NCBI GenBank assembly: GCA_018660685.1
Contig: JABJJW010000018.1
Coordinates: forward strand, 1 to 64,000
Direction of reading: 5' to 3'
Source: Flavobacteriales bacterium
GTDB lineage: Bacteria > Bacteroidota > Bacteroidia > Flavobacteriales_G > Salibacteraceae
DNA length: 64,000 bases
The position numbers and the translations under genes are program-made. Shown here piece after piece: positions 1 to 13,025 of this stretch. Position 1 is the first letter of the stretch. Each line of letters starts with the position of its first letter. The notes under the pieces are model-generated. The model searched no databases, was not told where the DNA came from, and saw only the letters and a list, made by a program, of their open reading frames with translations.

Positions 1-1125
1 ACATGTATGTGAGCTAATCAATTTCCACTTTGGATACGTGCCTTTTGCTGATCTGCCAGTCTTTGGGTTCATCAGGTTTCCTTCTGTTGGTTCATCAACC
101 CCCACCAACTTACAGACCTCCTTTACATATCTATTGAACAGAGCAGAAGCACTATCAGGAGAAGCCCCGAAAGACTCTGGAAATTCTCCCCCACGAGAAC
201 TAAGAATATCCCTAACAATAGGATGAATAGGAATCTGTACCAGCTTATCTGTTTTAACCTGATTAAGCACAATAAACTGATGACCTTGAATCTCTTGAAT
301 CATGCTAGAATTCATACGTAGGAGATCACTTACTCTTTGACCAGTATAACAACCTATTATTAGCCAATCTCTAGCTCTTTCCAGAGTATTTGAATCAAGA
401 TCAAGAGAGTGAATGGAACTAAGCTCAGAGGGGCTTAAAATGACTTTAGGAACATCTTCTGTATACCCCCTTATATCGTCGATCATTGGACTAACATCAA
501 GACCATTCTTTCTAGCATCTCTCAGAATGGTTTTAACCATTTTCACGTACTTCCCAGAGGTATTTGGTTTTAATCCATCAACATTGTCCAAATAGTCACT
601 AAATTCTTCTCCAAACCTCCCCGTAACATCAGAAAGTTTTATGGTTCGATGAATATGTTGTTCATAAGCAACCAGCTTACCTAAGACCGTTCGATACTTC
701 TTCTTGGTTCTCTCACTTGTGCCCTTGCTCTGTTTTCCTTTTTTGTGGGAGACTTTAGAGTCAAGTCTTGAGATGTAGTTCGTTGCGTAGTCAATCAACT
801 CAGTAATTTGCTCATCTTCCTTTTGGCCTCGATTATAGAACTCCGCAATAACAGACTCTAACCAAAAACCATCAATCTCCAGACCTGCCATCTGATCTTT
901 ATTATGGACGTTAAATACATACTCTTCTAGAGTCGTCAGATTCGTATTGATAGCCTTTGCCGTAGAATTCCTTCCTAGCATCCTTCCTCGATCATTATCC
1001 CACAACTCAGGATTTACTGTCAATCCCGTCTTCCGTTTATAGTTAATTTGCCTTCCTGCTGAAAGTCGGCAGTAGATAGGAGAGTGTGGTCTATCGGATT
1101 GTAAAAGGAACTTGATGGAGGCCAT
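1..1125 (-). CDS. Tyrosine-type site-specific integrase, 3' end beyond window
   Basis: The reverse strand is open for 375 codons from an ATG at 1125 to the window edge. The N-terminus (about residues 1-85, with IYCRLSAGRQINYKRKTGL) resembles the arm-DNA-binding domain of Bacteroidota phage/transposon integrases. It is followed by a SAM-like core-binding part (about 105-225) and the catalytic domain. The first catalytic arginine is visible in GCYTGQRVSDLL (Arg264). The last residues seen, ISSHTC, carry the catalytic His373; the paired Arg and the Tyr nucleophile lie outside the window. The gene diverges from rlmF, a housekeeping gene, so the element it mobilises most likely extends leftwards. 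Whether it is a phage, an integrative element or a lone integrase cannot be told from here. Confidence 0.93.
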   Translation of the reverse strand, partial: MASIKFLLQSDRPHSPIYCRLSAGRQINYKRKTGLTVNPELWDNDRGRMLGRNSTAKAINTNLTTLEEYVFNVHNKDQMAGLEIDGFWLESVIAEFYNRGQKEDEQITELIDYATNYISRLDSKVSHKKGKQSKGTSERTKKKYRTVLGKLVAYEQHIHRTIKLSDVTGRFGEEFSDYLDNVDGLKPNTSGKYVKMVKTILRDARKNGLDVSPMIDDIRGYTEDVPKVILSPSELSSIHSLDLDSNTLERARDWLIIGCYTGQRVSDLLRMNSSMIQEIQGHQFIVLNQVKTDKLVQIPIHPIVRDILSSRGGEFPESFGASPDSASALFNRYVKEVCKLVGVDEPTEGNLMNPKTGRSAKGTYPKWKLISSHTC

Positions 1126-1170
1126 ATCTAGATTCTATTTAGACAACAAATATAAATTTTAGTCAACGTT

Positions 1171-1276
1171 ATTCAATCACATTCAATAGACTCGTTAATC
1201 TTATTATTCTCTGTATTGTAGAAATACTAACACTTTCACACTGAAACAAGGGAAATTGAATAATATCAAATTGAAT
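1171..1276. repeat. Four ATTGAAT heptamers beside the integrase gene
   Basis: In the 185-bp gap between integrase and rlmF, ATTCAAT occurs at 1171-1177 and 1181-1187, and its reverse complement ATTGAAT at 1255-1261 and 1270-1276. This gives two tandem pairs in inverted orientation. Tyrosine integrases commonly bind short directly repeated arm-type sites next to their own gene, so this may be an attachment-site arm region. AT-rich chance repetition is the alternative. Confidence 0.4.
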
Positions 1277-1310
1277 AGTTGTAGTACTGGCGGGGCTACA
1301 ATTCCACCTC

Positions 1311-2309
1311 ATGCCACGACCCAGAATAAATCGAAGCGAACATAAACCGATTCCCGTTGAAAAAGCGCCATTTCACGAAAGAAATAGGCACAGTGGAGAA
1401 TACAACTTTGAAGACCTCATTGAATCCAATTCGATGTTAAGGGAGCATGTCATTCAGAATGAGCAAGGAACGGCTACCATTGACTTCTCTGATCCAGCAG
1501 CAGTAAAAGAGCTGAATCGGTCATTGTTAATGCACGATTACCGGCTTAAATCCTGGGATGTGCCAAATGGATATCTGATTCCACCAATTCCAGGAAGAGC
1601 CGACTACATTCATTACGCCGCTGATTTAATGTCAGGAAACTACCCAAAAAAGACAACTGATCCCATTCCCACAGGGACGCAAATACGCTGCCTCGATATT
1701 GGTGTTGGTGCCAGTTGTGTCTATCCAATAATTGGTCAAAAGGAGTATGGGTGGAAGTTTGTGGGCGCCGACATTGATTCAAGAGCTCTGAATGCTGCCC
1801 AAACAATTATAGATTCAAATGGACTTGATCGGTCCATTGAACTTCGGATTCAGGATGATGATCAATTCAAGTTTAAGGGTGTGGTCGCCAAAGGGGAATT
1901 CTTTGATCTGAGTATCTGCAATCCTCCATTTCATGCATCACAAGAAGAAGCTGATAAAGCAACAAAACGTAAGGTTCAAAACCTGAAAGGAGAGCCCACT
2001 AAAAATGTTACTTCGAATTTTAGCGGCACTCAAACAGAACTTTGGTGTGAGGGCGGCGAGATCAAATTTGTGACTGACTACATTGATGAGAGCAAATTAT
2101 TCGGTGACCAAATTCTATGGTTCACAACCTTGATTTCCAAAAAAGAAAATGTGCACCTGGCTCTAAAGAGACTAGAAAACCTGGACGCTCTGAATGTTCA
2201 GGTCATTGAGATAAACCATGGGAACAAAAAGAGCAGGCTAATAGGTTGGTCTTTTAAAAACAGAAAAGGAAGGAAGACTTGGCATCGAACTCGATGGGAA
2301 GTTGCCTAA
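1311..2309 (+). CDS. rlmF: 23S rRNA (adenine(1618)-N(6))-methyltransferase RlmF
   Basis: This 332-residue protein matches the RlmF/YbiN family, which methylates N6 of A1618 in 23S rRNA using S-adenosylmethionine. The SAM-binding motif I is DIGVGASC (about residues 129-136), followed by an acidic loop (GADID). The N6-adenine methyltransferase signature NPPF with HAS after it lies at about 203-209. The family-typical tail with TRWEVA is present. Length is normal for the family. It stands alone between the integrase and a decayed region. Confidence 0.93.
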   Translation: MPRPRINRSEHKPIPVEKAPFHERNRHSGEYNFEDLIESNSMLREHVIQNEQGTATIDFSDPAAVKELNRSLLMHDYRLKSWDVPNGYLIPPIPGRADYIHYAADLMSGNYPKKTTDPIPTGTQIRCLDIGVGASCVYPIIGQKEYGWKFVGADIDSRALNAAQTIIDSNGLDRSIELRIQDDDQFKFKGVVAKGEFFDLSICNPPFHASQEEADKATKRKVQNLKGEPTKNVTSNFSGTQTELWCEGGEIKFVTDYIDESKLFGDQILWFTTLISKKENVHLALKRLENLDALNVQVIEINHGNKKSRLIGWSFKNRKGRKTWHRTRWEVA

Positions 2310-2320
2310 TCTGTTTCTCG

Positions 2321-2443
2321 AGAATAAAGCCGAACGCCTACCGAATTGACCTCGAAGACTTGACAAATGGCGCATACCTCATAAAGGTCTATGATTTCTC
2401 AAGTCCAGCAAGGTTCCAAAACTTGATCAAGCAATGGAACTAG
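2321..2443 (+). pseudogene. Remnant of a T9SS-type C-terminal sorting domain
   Basis: There is no full gene between rlmF and the ORF at 2559, but one frame reads a peptide containing YRIDLEDLTNGAYLIKVYDF and ends at a TAG at 2441-2443. The pattern of a hydrophobic strand, 'L-x-NGAYLIKV' and a short tail is what the last strands of type A T9SS sorting domains look like. No start codon or upstream body of the protein is visible, so I read it as the stub of a deleted secreted-protein gene. The identification rests on one short motif. Confidence 0.4.
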
Positions 2444-2558
2444 CCCATATTGGATTGGAGCGAACTATTCATTTGTTCGCGGCTTTCTGTTTGAATTCTG
2501 CGGTACGACCGAATTAAGCGTCGAGCATAAAGACGGCCATAAAGTCAAGGTTGTCCAT

Positions 2559-3275
2559 ATGAGTAAAGGAGATGGTTCTATGAGTCAAGAAGAAATGGAT
2601 GAAATGGTTCAGGAAATGAGAATTCGTCACGCAGAATCTGCTGATGGTTCAGATGGTGAAGAAATCGTCATGAAGAAGGTAATCCACATCGACAAACGAA
2701 AGGACCATGAAGGTGAAGGACCAGAAGACGAGGTAGAGATTCGCGTTAAAATCGAAGATGGAGTCGAAATCATTGAAGCCACCAAAAATGGAGTAGAGCT
2801 CAGCGAAGTAGAGGCTCGAGAGCTTCTCGATAAAGAGAACATTCATGTGGTTGGTGATGGTGCTATTCAAAAGGAAATGATCTTTATTTCTGAAGAAGAA
2901 ATCTCCGACGGAGAAAATGTATTCATCCAAAAGCATGAAATACGGACTAATGATGAAACTGAAAATATGGCCATCGCCATCATCAAGGAGTTCGCCGCTA
3001 TGGGAACAGAGGAAGCGATAGATGCCAAAACCAGTCGGCTCAGCATTTATCCAAATCCCGCCACCGAAGAAATCAAGGCACAATTAGAAGGCGTTGAGGG
3101 AAAGTATACTGTTACCCTCACAAATCTCGCTGGTCAGATGATTCGAAAAGAAGTCGGAAATGCTAGCAATAGCGCACAGCACACAACCAATTTAAAAGGT
3201 GTTCCTGCTGGAACATATATTCTCAGCATTGATCACGAAGGGGGACTGAAGTCCGAAAAATTCGTAGTCGAATAA
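2559..3275 (+). CDS. Acidic protein with T9SS type A sorting domain, no signal peptide visible
   Basis: The 238-residue product has a long, highly acidic region (about 1-160) rich in Glu, Asp and Lys, with IHIDKRKDHEGEG- and VEIRVKIEDGVEII-like strands. A C-terminal type A sorting domain follows: SIYPNPATEEI (about 164-174) then LAGQMIRKE and GVPAGTYILSI. Such proteins normally have an N-terminal signal peptide, but none is found at this ATG. The frame is open upstream only to 2427, again without one. The 5' end is therefore probably lost or shifted; a neighbouring frame at about 2434-2510 encodes a mildly hydrophobic stretch. Function unknown; the gene may be decaying. Confidence 0.6.
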   Translation: MSKGDGSMSQEEMDEMVQEMRIRHAESADGSDGEEIVMKKVIHIDKRKDHEGEGPEDEVEIRVKIEDGVEIIEATKNGVELSEVEARELLDKENIHVVGDGAIQKEMIFISEEEISDGENVFIQKHEIRTNDETENMAIAIIKEFAAMGTEEAIDAKTSRLSIYPNPATEEIKAQLEGVEGKYTVTLTNLAGQMIRKEVGNASNSAQHTTNLKGVPAGTYILSIDHEGGLKSEKFVVE

Positions 3276-9161: not shown

Positions 9162-9185
9162 AAGATTATTCCAATCATTCTGGCT

Positions 9186-10091
9186 CTAGCCCTGGGATGT
9201 CAAGACCAGGTCTCTATCAATGATAGCCGTCAAATGAGATATGGTCTCAACGAAAATTAAATCCTTGGACAATTGCTTGTCCATTTGATTGAGTTGGTTT
9301 CCGCTTACCAGGACGTTCGCCTTTTTGGAAAACTTCAGCAGTTCAGACTCCACTTTTTTGAAATTTCTATCACTAATTTTTGAAACGAAAGTTGTGACGA
9401 CTAAATCTGGACCAATTTTGTTAAAGGCCTCCTTGACCTCCAGAATTGGCACTTTTTGTCCAAAATAATGACACAAATAGCCGGCTTTTTTCAAAAGATA
9501 ATAGAATAGTAAAATGCTGAACTCATGTTCTTCAGTATCGTGCAAAAACAGAATAGCAGCCTTGTCCGATTCTCCTTTACTTCCCAACCTACCAATATTG
9601 TAAATCAAGAACTCCCTAAAAATATTCGAGAAATAATGCTCGTGAATAATATCGATGGAATCAACCTGCCAGAGCTGCCCTATGCGCTTAAACACGGGCA
9701 CTATTGTCTTTTCATAAAACTCATCAATCGTACACTCCTCTATCGCAAGCAGCATTTGAGATTTAATTTTCTCTCCATTGAAATCCAAAATTGACAAGGT
9801 GATACTATCCACAAGAGATTGGTCTTGTGCTTGGTTGGTGATCAAGTCTTTAGAAGCTTGCACAATTTCAGATTCTGACAGAGCAGCTATGCTGGATATT
9901 TTGTGACCCGACTTGTAGAGGAGATGAATGTTCAATATTTTCTTTAAGTCTTCATCATTGTAGTATCGAATGTTCGTTTCTGTCCTCCTAGGAGTCAAGA
10001 GACCATATCGTTTTTCCCAAATCCTAATTGTATGAGCTTTTATCTGCGTGAAATTCTCAAGATCTCGGATACTATAACTTAATTCACTCAT
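9186..10091 (-). CDS. MerR-family regulator with cobalamin-binding-like domain
   Basis: The 301-residue protein has an N-terminal MerR winged helix (YSIRDLENFTQIKAHTIRIW, then EKRYGLLTPRRTETNIRYY, about 5-47). A helical bundle follows with the IIHEHYFSN motif, then a Rossmann-like B12-binding domain. This is the LitR/CarH layout, in which adenosylcobalamin makes DNA binding light-sensitive. The usual D/E-x-H-x-x-G signature appears as EEHEFS: Glu and His are kept but the Gly is replaced by Ser, so cobalamin binding may be weakened. It ends a minus-strand series with glutathione peroxidase, SOUL and fasciclin genes, which are plausible targets. Confidence 0.85.
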   Translation of the reverse strand: MSELSYSIRDLENFTQIKAHTIRIWEKRYGLLTPRRTETNIRYYNDEDLKKILNIHLLYKSGHKISSIAALSESEIVQASKDLITNQAQDQSLVDSITLSILDFNGEKIKSQMLLAIEECTIDEFYEKTIVPVFKRIGQLWQVDSIDIIHEHYFSNIFREFLIYNIGRLGSKGESDKAAILFLHDTEEHEFSILLFYYLLKKAGYLCHYFGQKVPILEVKEAFNKIGPDLVVTTFVSKISDRNFKKVESELLKFSKKANVLVSGNQLNQMDKQLSKDLIFVETISHLTAIIDRDLVLTSQG

Positions 10092-10168
10092 TCTTATTCG
10101 ATTCCTTTACACCACATAAAATTAGAATTCTTTCATTGAGTCTGATGATAACTTCTGAACCGGCTTGA

Positions 10169-10741
10169 TCACTTAACTAAACTCGTTATCCGATCATCCA
10201 TCGGGTCGACATTTGAAGGAAAAATCTCAAGCAACCTTCCGGTTTCATCGACTAAGTATTTTTGGAAATTCCAGTTTACTTTCGAGTCGACACTTCCATT
10301 TTGAGAAGCACTCGTGAGCCATTTATAGAGTGGATGTTGGTTGCTGCCTTTAACATCGACCTTTTCGGTGATTAAAAATGATACCCCATAATTTCTCTCA
10401 CAGAATTCCGCAATTTGTTCATTTGACCCTGGTTCCTGATTCATGAATTGATTGCATGGAACTCCTACCACAATTAGTTGGTCTTTGAATCTTTCATGAA
10501 GTGTTTGCAGAGCTGAATACTGCCTTGTAAATCCACATTTTGAAGCGACATTCACAAAAAGAATCTTTTTGCCCTTAAACTGAGAGATATTAATCGCCTC
10601 TCCTTCGATGGATTTAACCGAGAGATTATAAACCGACTCAATGGGCTTCACCAATTTTGTGATTGATGGTGTCATGGACATTAGCATATATCCTAAAAAT
10701 CCCAAAAATGGGATACTGTAGGTAATTGATTTACTGATCAT
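10169..10741 (-). CDS. Glutathione peroxidase family protein with membrane anchor
   Basis: This 190-residue thioredoxin-fold peroxidase carries the family motifs NVASKCGFTRQYSALQ (cysteine, not selenocysteine, in the active site), VPCNQFMNQEPGSN and WNFQKYLV, with Gln and Trp of the catalytic tetrad. A hydrophobic N-terminus (YSIPFLGFLGYMLMSM) suggests a membrane anchor or signal. It reduces peroxides, in bacteria probably with thioredoxin. Its start lies 2 bp after the stop of the SOUL gene, so the two are co-transcribed; the MerR gene follows 77 bp later. Confidence 0.92.
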   Translation of the reverse strand: MISKSITYSIPFLGFLGYMLMSMTPSITKLVKPIESVYNLSVKSIEGEAINISQFKGKKILFVNVASKCGFTRQYSALQTLHERFKDQLIVVGVPCNQFMNQEPGSNEQIAEFCERNYGVSFLITEKVDVKGSNQHPLYKWLTSASQNGSVDSKVNWNFQKYLVDETGRLLEIFPSNVDPMDDRITSLVK

Positions 10742-10743
10742 TA

Positions 10744-11334
10744 CTATTGATTTATTAATTTGACGATCACCTCATTTCTTCTATTGATAAGCTGATAAGG
10801 AGGATTGTAACCCAGATAGCTATAACTATCCTCATACTTCAATTGTTCTTCCTCAAGGAGGGTTTTCAATTCCTCAAATTTGGATTCAAGAACCTTTTTC
10901 GATGCCCATCCAGAGAACTGGATAACCGCAACTTTTTTTGCGGGTTCGACTTGAATTCTTACATCGCTCCGATCTGGAACGGGTAACTCGCTTATCAAAT
11001 ATTCCGGAGGCAGATAAAAACTCATCGAACTGCTATCGCTCATGTCCATCTTAACAGGTGATGTCATTGAAATTTTTTTGCCTGAACTGTTCTTACCAAA
11101 TATGTAGGATGCAATTCTGGAGAACCCAGTTCTTGCCATTTCGCTGTATGAAGAGCGTTCCAATTCCGTTGTGGCCACCGTTAAGTCAGGGTAGCTTCGA
11201 ATCTCATATTTATCCATTTTAGACAAGATTTCATATGTGATTGTATTGGTTTCTGAAGTGCTTTTAATAACTCTCAGTTGTGCAATGACTCCAGTAGTCA
11301 CGAGAATAAAAAAGACGATTAATAATTGATTCAT
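10744..11334 (-). CDS. SOUL heme-binding family protein, exported
   Basis: A 196-residue protein with an N-terminal hydrophobic signal or anchor (QLLIVFFILVTTGVIAQL) and a SOUL/HBP domain: TYEILSKMDKYEIRSYPD, FSRIASYIFGKN, KISMTSPVKMDM, MSFYLPPEY and VAVIQFSGWAS. SOUL proteins bind heme or porphyrins. The gene is immediately upstream of glutathione peroxidase and downstream of the fasciclin gene. The context suggests handling of tetrapyrrole-linked or light-linked oxidative stress in the periplasm, which is an inference. Confidence 0.88.
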   Translation of the reverse strand: MNQLLIVFFILVTTGVIAQLRVIKSTSETNTITYEILSKMDKYEIRSYPDLTVATTELERSSYSEMARTGFSRIASYIFGKNSSGKKISMTSPVKMDMSDSSSMSFYLPPEYLISELPVPDRSDVRIQVEPAKKVAVIQFSGWASKKVLESKFEELKTLLEEEQLKYEDSYSYLGYNPPYQLINRRNEVIVKLINQ

Positions 11335-11352
11335 AGCAATCGGTTATTTGAT

Positions 11353-11377
11353 AAAAGGGGGGCCAAAATCGCCCCCC
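11353..11377 (-). terminator. Terminator downstream of the fasciclin gene
   Basis: GGGGGGC at 11357-11363 pairs with GCCCCCC at 11371-11377 around a 7-nt loop; on the minus strand a TTTT run follows. It sits in the 64-bp gap between the fasciclin stop and the SOUL start, so it may reduce rather than abolish read-through into SOUL-gpx. Confidence 0.7.
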
Positions 11378-11398
11378 TAATTAATTATCATGAGCATA

Positions 11399-12946
11399 TT
11401 ATAGAATTTGCAGTCTTTGAACGCTGTTTACTTTTTCGCCTGAAAGTTCAAGCAAGTACATTCCACTTTCGAGGGATTGAACATCCACTGAGCTGTTTGC
11501 CGTCAGAGCAGTTTGCAAAATGACTTGTCCTTTTATATCATAAATGGTTGCATTATCAATTTCATATCCCTGTCTGTCAATTCGTAGATAATCTACGGCA
11601 GGATTTGGATAAACTTTGAAATTGAAGTTGAAGGATTCCTCAATCACAGTGGGAATTGGAGTCAAGACTCCATCGATCACGTGAACAACACCATTATCCA
11701 CTTCAATATCCGCGATTGTGACATTGGTATTGTTGATTTTAACTCCAGAGTTAACATCTACGTTAATATCGTTTCCATTCAACGTTGAAACGGCCCCGTT
11801 CGTTAGAGCTGTAGATAACACGTTTCCCGCAACCACATGATAAAGTAGAATGTCAGCTAGATCTTCACTAGCCAGAAGGCCTGCTAAATCGGTATTCAAG
11901 GATGTAGCAAAGTTCAAAAAGGCATCATTGGTAGGTGCGAACACCGTATATTCAGCTAGTGGATCGCTCAACGTGGCCAGTAGCTCCGCTTCAATGACTG
12001 CTGAGGTCAACGTTGTGAAGCCATTGTCAATTGCTACATCGACTACCGTTTCTACAGGCAATACCACCTGGTCAAGTACATGAACAAGTCCGTTGTCTGA
12101 TGCTATATCTACAGCTGTAATTTGCGCTTGATTTAGATAAGCATCGCCCGATTCCGTAAGCGATAGTTTCAGCGAATTTGTTGAACTAAGTGGTTCTACA
12201 ATCGCGCCATTCGAAATTGACGATGATGCTACTTCCATTCCTATCACATGATAAGTCAAGATGTCTGCTAGATTAGAAAGTGCCAGAAGACCATTTATGT
12301 CGGTATTCAAAGCAGAAGCCAAATCAGAAAACGCATCGTTTGTAGGAGCAAAAACCGTGTAACTAGAAAGTGGATCGGTTAACGCTGGAAGTAATTCGGC
12401 CGTTATAACTGCGGTGGTCAAGGTAGAGAACCCATTGTCTATCGCAACATCTACTACCGTTTCCACTGGAAGAACTATTTTATCCAGTACGTGAACCATT
12501 CCATTGTCAGCACTAATGTCAGCCGCTACAACTTGAGCTTGATTCACATATACATCACCAGCTCCGGATACCGTTAATTTTAAGGTGTTCGTGCTACTTA
12601 CAGGATTGACAATGTCACCATTGGTTATTCCTGTCGAAGCAACAGAGGCTCCCAAAACATGGTAGGTAAGAATATCAGTGAGATTTGGGAGCGCCAAAAG
12701 CCCTGTGATATTTGTATTGAGTGCAGCAGCTAAACTGTCGAATGCAGCGTCGTTTGGAGCAAAGACTGTTAGCTGAGCAGAATCATCTTGAAGTACCCCT
12801 TCGAGTCCTTCCTGAAGTATTGCGGCCTCTAAATATGTGTGATTCGGACTGGCCGCGATTATGTCGTCGAAGACATTAGTTTGTGAGTTTGCACTCAAAT
12901 TGAAAAATATCAGTGCTGTTGTTACAGCATAAACTATTCGTTTCAT
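11399..12946 (-). CDS. Three-repeat fasciclin (FAS1) protein with T9SS type A sorting domain
   Basis: The preferred ATG at 12946 gives a clear signal peptide (MKRIVYAVTTALIFFNLSAN); the frame is open 13 codons further upstream but that would spoil it. Three FAS1 domains follow (about 25-150, 160-290 and 300-425), each with LTVFAPNDAAF-type and HVLDKIVLP-type motifs. Repeats 1 and 2 are especially alike (both contain VETVVDVAIDNGF at the boundary), suggesting internal duplication. The end is a type A T9SS domain (FKVYPNPAVDYLRI, then SLESGMYLLELSGE), so it is probably a secreted or surface adhesion protein. It heads the SOUL-gpx-MerR series. Confidence 0.92.
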   Translation of the reverse strand: MKRIVYAVTTALIFFNLSANSQTNVFDDIIAASPNHTYLEAAILQEGLEGVLQDDSAQLTVFAPNDAAFDSLAAALNTNITGLLALPNLTDILTYHVLGASVASTGITNGDIVNPVSSTNTLKLTVSGAGDVYVNQAQVVAADISADNGMVHVLDKIVLPVETVVDVAIDNGFSTLTTAVITAELLPALTDPLSSYTVFAPTNDAFSDLASALNTDINGLLALSNLADILTYHVIGMEVASSSISNGAIVEPLSSTNSLKLSLTESGDAYLNQAQITAVDIASDNGLVHVLDQVVLPVETVVDVAIDNGFTTLTSAVIEAELLATLSDPLAEYTVFAPTNDAFLNFATSLNTDLAGLLASEDLADILLYHVVAGNVLSTALTNGAVSTLNGNDINVDVNSGVKINNTNVTIADIEVDNGVVHVIDGVLTPIPTVIEESFNFNFKVYPNPAVDYLRIDRQGYEIDNATIYDIKGQVILQTALTANSSVDVQSLESGMYLLELSGEKVNSVQRLQIL

Positions 12947-12954
12947 AATAACTT

Positions 12955-13025
12955 TGTTTAATGTTTGTTTTAAAAGTTTAAACAAATGTATATTATGTTT
13001 AACGTTTATCGTTTTTTTTTAAACA
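12955..13025 (-). promoter_or_regulatory. Fasciclin-gene promoter with clustered TGTTTAA-like sites
   Basis: On the minus strand TACATTTG (12990-12983) matches the Bacteroidota -7 element, but no TTG is found at the right distance upstream. Around it TGTTTAA-like words recur: 12955-12961, 12966-12973, GTTTAAAC at 12976-12983, TGTTTAAC at 12996-13003 and TTTAAACA at 13018-13025. TTTGTTT and AAACAAA (12964-12970 and 12980-12986) also form an inverted repeat. This looks like a multi-site operator, plausibly for the nearby MerR-type regulator. The rest of the gene-free stretch up to about 13230 is AT-rich with nothing I can name. Confidence 0.5.

Follow-up and report, generated by a model that had tools for sequence, protein, structure and literature searches.

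Four genes on the minus strand of the window, the 64,000-nucleotide (nt) stretch of Flavobacteriales DNA analysed here, probably form a carotenoid-free CarH-type regulon for photo-oxidative and porphyrin defence, run by the product of its own last gene. In transcription order they encode a fasciclin protein, a SOUL protein, a glutathione-peroxidase-family protein (GPx) and a MerR-type regulator; they span positions 9186–12946, in a host genome of 2.58 Mb that is 96% complete in 28 contigs. All four genes named in an earlier, sequence-only reading of this DNA are present and carry the expected Pfam domains (Table 1). The fasciclin protein matches PF02469 (E 3.3e-79) and, at its C terminus, PF18962 (Por_Secre_tail). 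As read from the sequence, the N termini of the SOUL and GPx proteins are hydrophobic, that of SOUL resembling a signal peptide. The intergenic gaps are 64 bp (fasciclin–SOUL), 2 bp (SOUL–GPx) and 77 bp (GPx–MerR), and the operon is bordered on the opposite strand by a converging cation antiporter gene on one side and a diverging nitroreductase gene on the other.

Table 1. Coordinates of the operon genes and of the elements in and around their promoter
Feature	Positions in window	Strand	Details
Operator 1, TGTTTAA-N16-TTAAACA	12996..13025	-	Exact match; upstream half of bipartite site; overlaps expected -33 region
Operator 2, TGTTTAA-N16-TTAAACA	12955..12984	-	Exact match; overlaps -7 element and reaches nearly to the start codon
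Candidate -7 element, TACATTTG	12983..12990	-	Fits TAnnTTTG; from sequence and position relative to operator 2
Fasciclin protein, three FAS1 domains and T9SS C-terminal sorting domain	11399..12946	-	515 aa from ATG
GC-rich hairpin between fasciclin and SOUL genes	11356..11378	-	8-pair stem, -20 kcal/mol, z -2.2
SOUL haem/porphyrin-binding protein	10744..11334	-	196 aa; PF04832, E 1.5e-47
Glutathione-peroxidase-family protein (GSHPx)	10169..10741	-	190 aa; PF00255, E 1.5e-39
MerR-type regulator with CarH-like B12-binding module	9186..10091	-	301 aa; Pfam MerR_1 and B12-binding_2

We infer a mechanism of repression, adenosylcobalamin (AdoCbl) binding and light release, with roles for the proteins, as follows. 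The four genes would be one transcription unit under the CarH/LitR-type repressor encoded at its end. In the dark, the AdoCbl-loaded regulator would occupy both TGTTTAA-N16-TTAAACA sites, bracketing the core promoter and blocking transcription; in the light, breakage of the Co–C bond would release the regulator and switch the operon on. Its products, predicted to be envelope or secreted proteins, would act against photosensitised damage, with SOUL binding free porphyrin or haem, GPx reducing lipid hydroperoxides and the secreted fasciclin protein having a protective role.

The same families recur in singlet-oxygen responses elsewhere. Passages on Chlamydomonas count SOUL2, SOUL1, FAS2 (fasciclin-like) and GPX5 among the singlet-oxygen genes that depend on SAK1 (PMC4067076), and passages on Rhodobacter describe induction by singlet oxygen of the fasciclin gene RSP_1409 in the R. 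sphaeroides RpoE set and of a GPx–cryptochrome operon beside rpoE–chrR in R. capsulatus (PMC7074977). These sources bear out the earlier view of SOUL and GPx as stress genes, and add fasciclin to them. The SAK1 and RpoE–ChrR regulons resemble the window operon in the families induced, but, in the parts of these papers considered here, their regulators are unrelated and their genes are dispersed instead of forming one operon. Because three singlet-oxygen families are united here, under an operator that relatives use for carotenoid, photolyase and rhodopsin genes, the comparison supports, by analogy, a photo-oxidative role for the window operon and points to fasciclin and SOUL proteins as photo-oxidative defence in bacteria.

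The putative operator consists of two sites at a 41-bp spacing that flank the fasciclin promoter, with TACATTTG matching TAnnTTTG, which we take to be the Bacteroidota -7 element consensus. With spacers of 15–17 nt allowed, the 2.58-Mb genome has no further exact copy, and the reversed control pattern is absent from it. Taken singly, the 7-mer TGTTTAA is no commoner in the window than expected (10 copies against 12.2), so that it is informative in paired form only; four of the ten copies lie within 71 bp (12955–13025), forming two inverted pairs that both have an N16 spacer. A relaxed scan of the same genome (at most two mismatches, N16) returned nine places besides the window pair. As this total of 11 is lower than the 27 of the reversed control, we claim none of the nine. 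From location and co-occurrence, we infer that the operator is paired with the regulator encoded in the operon.

The best solved relatives of this regulator are Thermus CarH and LitR. Its N-terminal DNA-binding domain matches PF13411 (E 1.4e-13), and in an AlphaFold2 model (mean pLDDT 83.5) the B12 module, a predicted four-helix bundle followed by a Rossmann fold, superposes on that of CarH with Z of about 18 and an rmsd of 2.3–2.6 Å over about 193 residues; the predicted fold matches AdoCbl-bound CarH. Full-length superpositions give large rmsd values, which probably reflects a different placement of the domains. Trp141, Glu151, His152 and His189 align to CarH Trp131, Glu141, His142 and His177, and the adenosyl-capping motif Wx9EH is present as W141...E151-H152. 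This motif and ExHx2G..SxV/T..GG make up the CarH signature as given in passages of a review (PMC8156234). Of the second motif the regulator has the Glu and the axial His, reads ExHxxS for ExHxxG and lacks SxT and GG; in 38 Bacteroidota homologues the Gly is kept in 33, SxT/V in one and GG in three.

The regulator also departs from CarH at His132, where it has Gln142, a register shown by alignment to an H132A chain. None of the 38 homologues has this His, whereas Trp is present in 37, Glu in 38, the His that follows it in 37 and the axial His in 38. In Thermus CarH, His132 completes light release through a bis-His light state, and the H132A variant was mostly tetrameric after aerobic light, whereas an earlier report saw disassembly, according to the passages of PMC10442372 considered here. 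The regulator scores 75 bits against a cut-off of 400 for the NCBIfam CarH equivalog. The window genome encodes a cobalamin adenosyltransferase. On present evidence the regulator is predicted to work like CarH, short of full family membership, and sequence and predicted fold alike uphold its earlier description as LitR/CarH-like.

The closest named loci to the window regulator are in Crocinitomicaceae metagenome-assembled genomes. In a tree of 38 proteins it groups with the regulators of two of these, L150 and L151 (support 100/100, branch length 2.23), and falls outside the clade of its own genus, to whose MerR proteins it is only 33–38% identical. L150 has the order double operator, fasciclin, SOUL, TspO, TonB receptor, site, MerR, and L151 the order double operator, fasciclin, TonB receptor, site, MerR; neither fasciclin operon showed a GPx gene. 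The L150 regulator has Arg for the His of Wx9EH (ER instead of EH), and Trp, Glu and the axial His are retained in all three clade members. We had considered that the close relatives might all be carotenoid-free and rejected this, as a search for phytoene synthase found none in the L150 genome but one in that of L151, whose crt cluster, over the 19.9 kb read, shows neither a MerR gene nor a site.

It is possible, though in our judgement unlikely, that the regulator retained the operator while its response to light and AdoCbl was lost or altered, and that it would repress a porphyrin/peroxide stress operon in response to redox state, oxygen or tetrapyrroles. The degenerate B12 motif without a His132 equivalent and the long branch that sets the three regulators apart are compatible with such a change, as are SOUL and TspO, two tetrapyrrole-linked families, within the L150 operon, and LitR classes that lack B12 and have other inputs are known (class II, LOV partners; passages of PMC9758184). 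However, the conserved Trp, Glu and axial His and the fit to AdoCbl-bound CarH argue against it, as do the family's operators elsewhere, which front rhodopsin, carotenoid and photolyase operons. More tentatively, and short of what we would call probable, Bacteroidota may have a distinct, His132-less branch of B12 photoreceptor-repressors, of which one clade would control a carotenoid-independent singlet-oxygen and porphyrin kit; as the His132 ligand is absent, these proteins would release DNA by a different light chemistry. If true, the kit of this clade (FAS1, SOUL, GPx or TspO) would comprise the same protein families as the green-algal singlet-oxygen regulon.

The same site recurs across the family. 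We found 53 exact copies in 35 family genomes, against 7 for the reversed pattern, with at least one in 29 of the genomes. Assigned by position relative to MerR and crtB matches, 35 belong to the MerR/carotenoid locus, two are those of the window and 16 fall elsewhere; we read all 16. Four of these precede fasciclin genes (genomes G007, G012, G020 and G032), three precede Pfam-checked rhodopsin genes (G001, G016 and G031), two TonB-receptor genes (G004 and G013), two ECF genes (G015 and G016), and one each a TetR–SDR operon and an SRPBCC gene (both G031); the remaining three, inside or overlapping reading frames in G002, G013 and G027, are probably chance. A shared operator, which the sequence-only reading had looked for, therefore exists, and in relatives it fronts carotenoid, pterin and photolyase operons. 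Sites with at most one mismatch occur in 34 of 35 promoters (26 ECF and 9 fasciclin, a set that excludes the fasciclin ortholog of G008, where no site was found), compared with a mean of 0.2 in a Markov control.

The geometry of these promoters is also shared. Of the 26 ECF promoters between MerR and the carotenoid genes, 20 have their two sites at a spacing of 62–65 bp, and in 19 the second site begins 6 nt past the start of TAnnTTTG. The second site has this 6-nt offset in the window, L150 and L151 as well. The site-to-site spacing there is 41, 44 and 44 bp, placing the first site about two helical turns closer, over the -33 region. Six other fasciclin promoters have one site, without TAnnTTTG at that offset. 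In the group that we name here the Bacteroidota B12-MerR regulon, to which the window operon belongs by this feature, the position of the bipartite site relative to TAnnTTTG thus appears mostly fixed.

The link to fasciclin extends beyond the clade, and that to SOUL is sparser. Fasciclin orthologs (best hits with at least 55% identity) occur in seven relatives, and in five of them a site with no more than one mismatch immediately precedes the start codon; the G002 ortholog has one half-site only, and the stretch read upstream of the G008 ortholog has none. Of the 25 regions read upstream of SOUL genes, three (G020, G040 and G049) contain a site with one mismatch or none, the one in G040 being exact. 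The SOUL gene of G020 has its own site and diverges from an ECF–carotenoid–photolyase operon, and in G033, G040 and G041 the SOUL gene adjoins photolyase or is close to it. Eleven genus-mates have a SOUL gene, and in none of them does it carry the operator. A further apparent fasciclin–SOUL pair from BLAST, L133, was rejected: its first gene shares the T9SS tail only, and the upstream region showed no site.

GPx and fasciclin families are widespread, and the genus-mates' SOUL genes do without the site, as would be expected if this were a general oxidative-stress or envelope operon with MerR as a mere neighbour and with sites that belong to another factor, such as an ECF sigma or a global regulator. 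We consider this improbable, since in many relatives the site fronts both MerR and the gene next to it, in L150 and L151 it stands before MerR itself, and it is absent in exact form from both family genomes that lack a MerR match (n = 2; chance 0.025), although an exact site is likewise missing from 4 of the 33 genomes that do have such a match.

In most genus-mates, the only B12-MerR gene is flanked by uvrC on one side and on the other by an operon for an ECF sigma, CrtI, CrtB, a 160-residue protein, isopentenyl isomerase (NUDIX), PTPS, GTP cyclohydrolase (folE), an SDR and photolyase. Matches to phytoene synthase and photolyase occur in each of the 12 genus-mates, whereas the 96% complete draft of the window genome has neither, which carries the earlier remark that photolyase and carotenoid genes are absent here to the whole draft. 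Both crtB and the photolyase gene could be located in its missing part, but two unlinked losses by chance of draft gaps are unlikely. With no detectable phytoene synthase or photolyase, the operon would be the visible light-defence output of this species. A search for rhodopsin gave no match in its genome, and likewise none in the control genomes.

The sequence-only reading had taken the operon for a reduced version of a light regulon. Simple decay is not borne out, as MerR belongs to a separate, long-branched clade of fasciclin operons and the operator accompanies the fasciclin gene in genus-mates too. That the genus carotenoid regulator was relocated and is drifting after losing its main targets would account for the missing crtB and photolyase matches, but is very improbable given the tree, which places the window MerR with L150 and L151 outside the genus clade, the intact 301-residue frame, the two perfect operators and the conserved operon partners. 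The tree placement and the gene orders of L150 and L151 favour placing the window operon in a small clade of fasciclin-linked MerR loci over reading it as the decayed form of a carotenoid locus.

Compared with the CarH/LitR systems of Thermus, Bacillus and Myxococcus, the window regulator has the same MerR domain and predicted four-helix bundle and Rossmann fold, the same Trp, Glu, His and axial His, a gene beside a putative photoprotection operon and an operator over the core promoter. It differs in having two long inverted repeats where theirs are tandem 11-bp direct repeats, in the partly kept B12 motif without His132, and in an output of fasciclin, SOUL and GPx in place of carotenoids. The class II LitR proteins of Pseudomonas (PplR/PmlR2) likewise use paired promoter-flanking sites and have photolyase and folE targets, but their site is TGTACA-N12-TGTACA, their B12 module is reduced to its four-helix half and PmlR2 has a LOV partner (passages of PMC9758184). 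In open-licence literature, searched partly with narrow word combinations, we recognised no description of the TGTTTAA-N16-TTAAACA operator or of this operon. The passages of PMC5241685 on a Vibrio cholerae MerR in blue light do not mention fasciclin or SOUL, and those of PMC7064467 describe a strain with light-induced carotenoids in which no car or lit genes were found and the mechanism is called unknown. Our analysis offers a testable operator and regulator for Bacteroidota light responses, would separate CarH-type light control from carotenoids, and raises the question of how light could release DNA without a bis-His state.

The hairpin between the fasciclin and SOUL genes is possibly a partial terminator or a processing stem, and may lower or stop read-through into the downstream genes. 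No hairpin was found where we looked for one after the fasciclin gene of L150; that of L151 is followed by a stronger one.

Members of one family of TonB-dependent receptors either carry the operator TGTTTAA-N16-TTAAACA, the predicted site of the B12-type MerR regulator, or lie inside the fasciclin–MerR operon. The receptor in genome G004 (L189) shares 52–53% identity with those of two MAG loci, L150 and L151, and we guess that the family's substrate is a porphyrin or cobalamin. Two of the three operons of the MerR clade (those in the window and in L151) have a strong hairpin just past the fasciclin gene, which could leave the fasciclin product in excess of the downstream products.

Positions of receptor genes and post-fasciclin hairpins
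Feature	Locus	Position	Placement
TonB-dependent receptor	L189 (G004:C8)	824-3235	
TonB-dependent receptor	L150	2582-5008	
TonB-dependent receptor	L151	5507-7936	
Strong hairpin	window	11356-11378	directly 3′ of fasciclin gene
Strong hairpin	L151	5437-5468	directly 3′ of fasciclin gene

L138 (G049:C41) has two further exact operator copies, at 10015-10044 and 11160-11189. They lie near two genes upstream of the MerR gene, one coding for an exported protein of 319 aa and the other for a protein of 219 aa, which suggests both as candidate additional regulon members. An exact operator at 3460-3489 of L185 (G031:C87) precedes an SRPBCC-type protein gene and, after it, a gene of 207 aa; across the operator lies an uncharacterised 259-aa gene. 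In other relatives, similar genes of 154–161 aa are found close to crt or photolyase genes. Behind the B12-MerR gene of L152, a Sphingobacteriia MAG locus, stand two near-identical tandem ECF sigma genes (at 9179 and 10293), each with its own operator copy.
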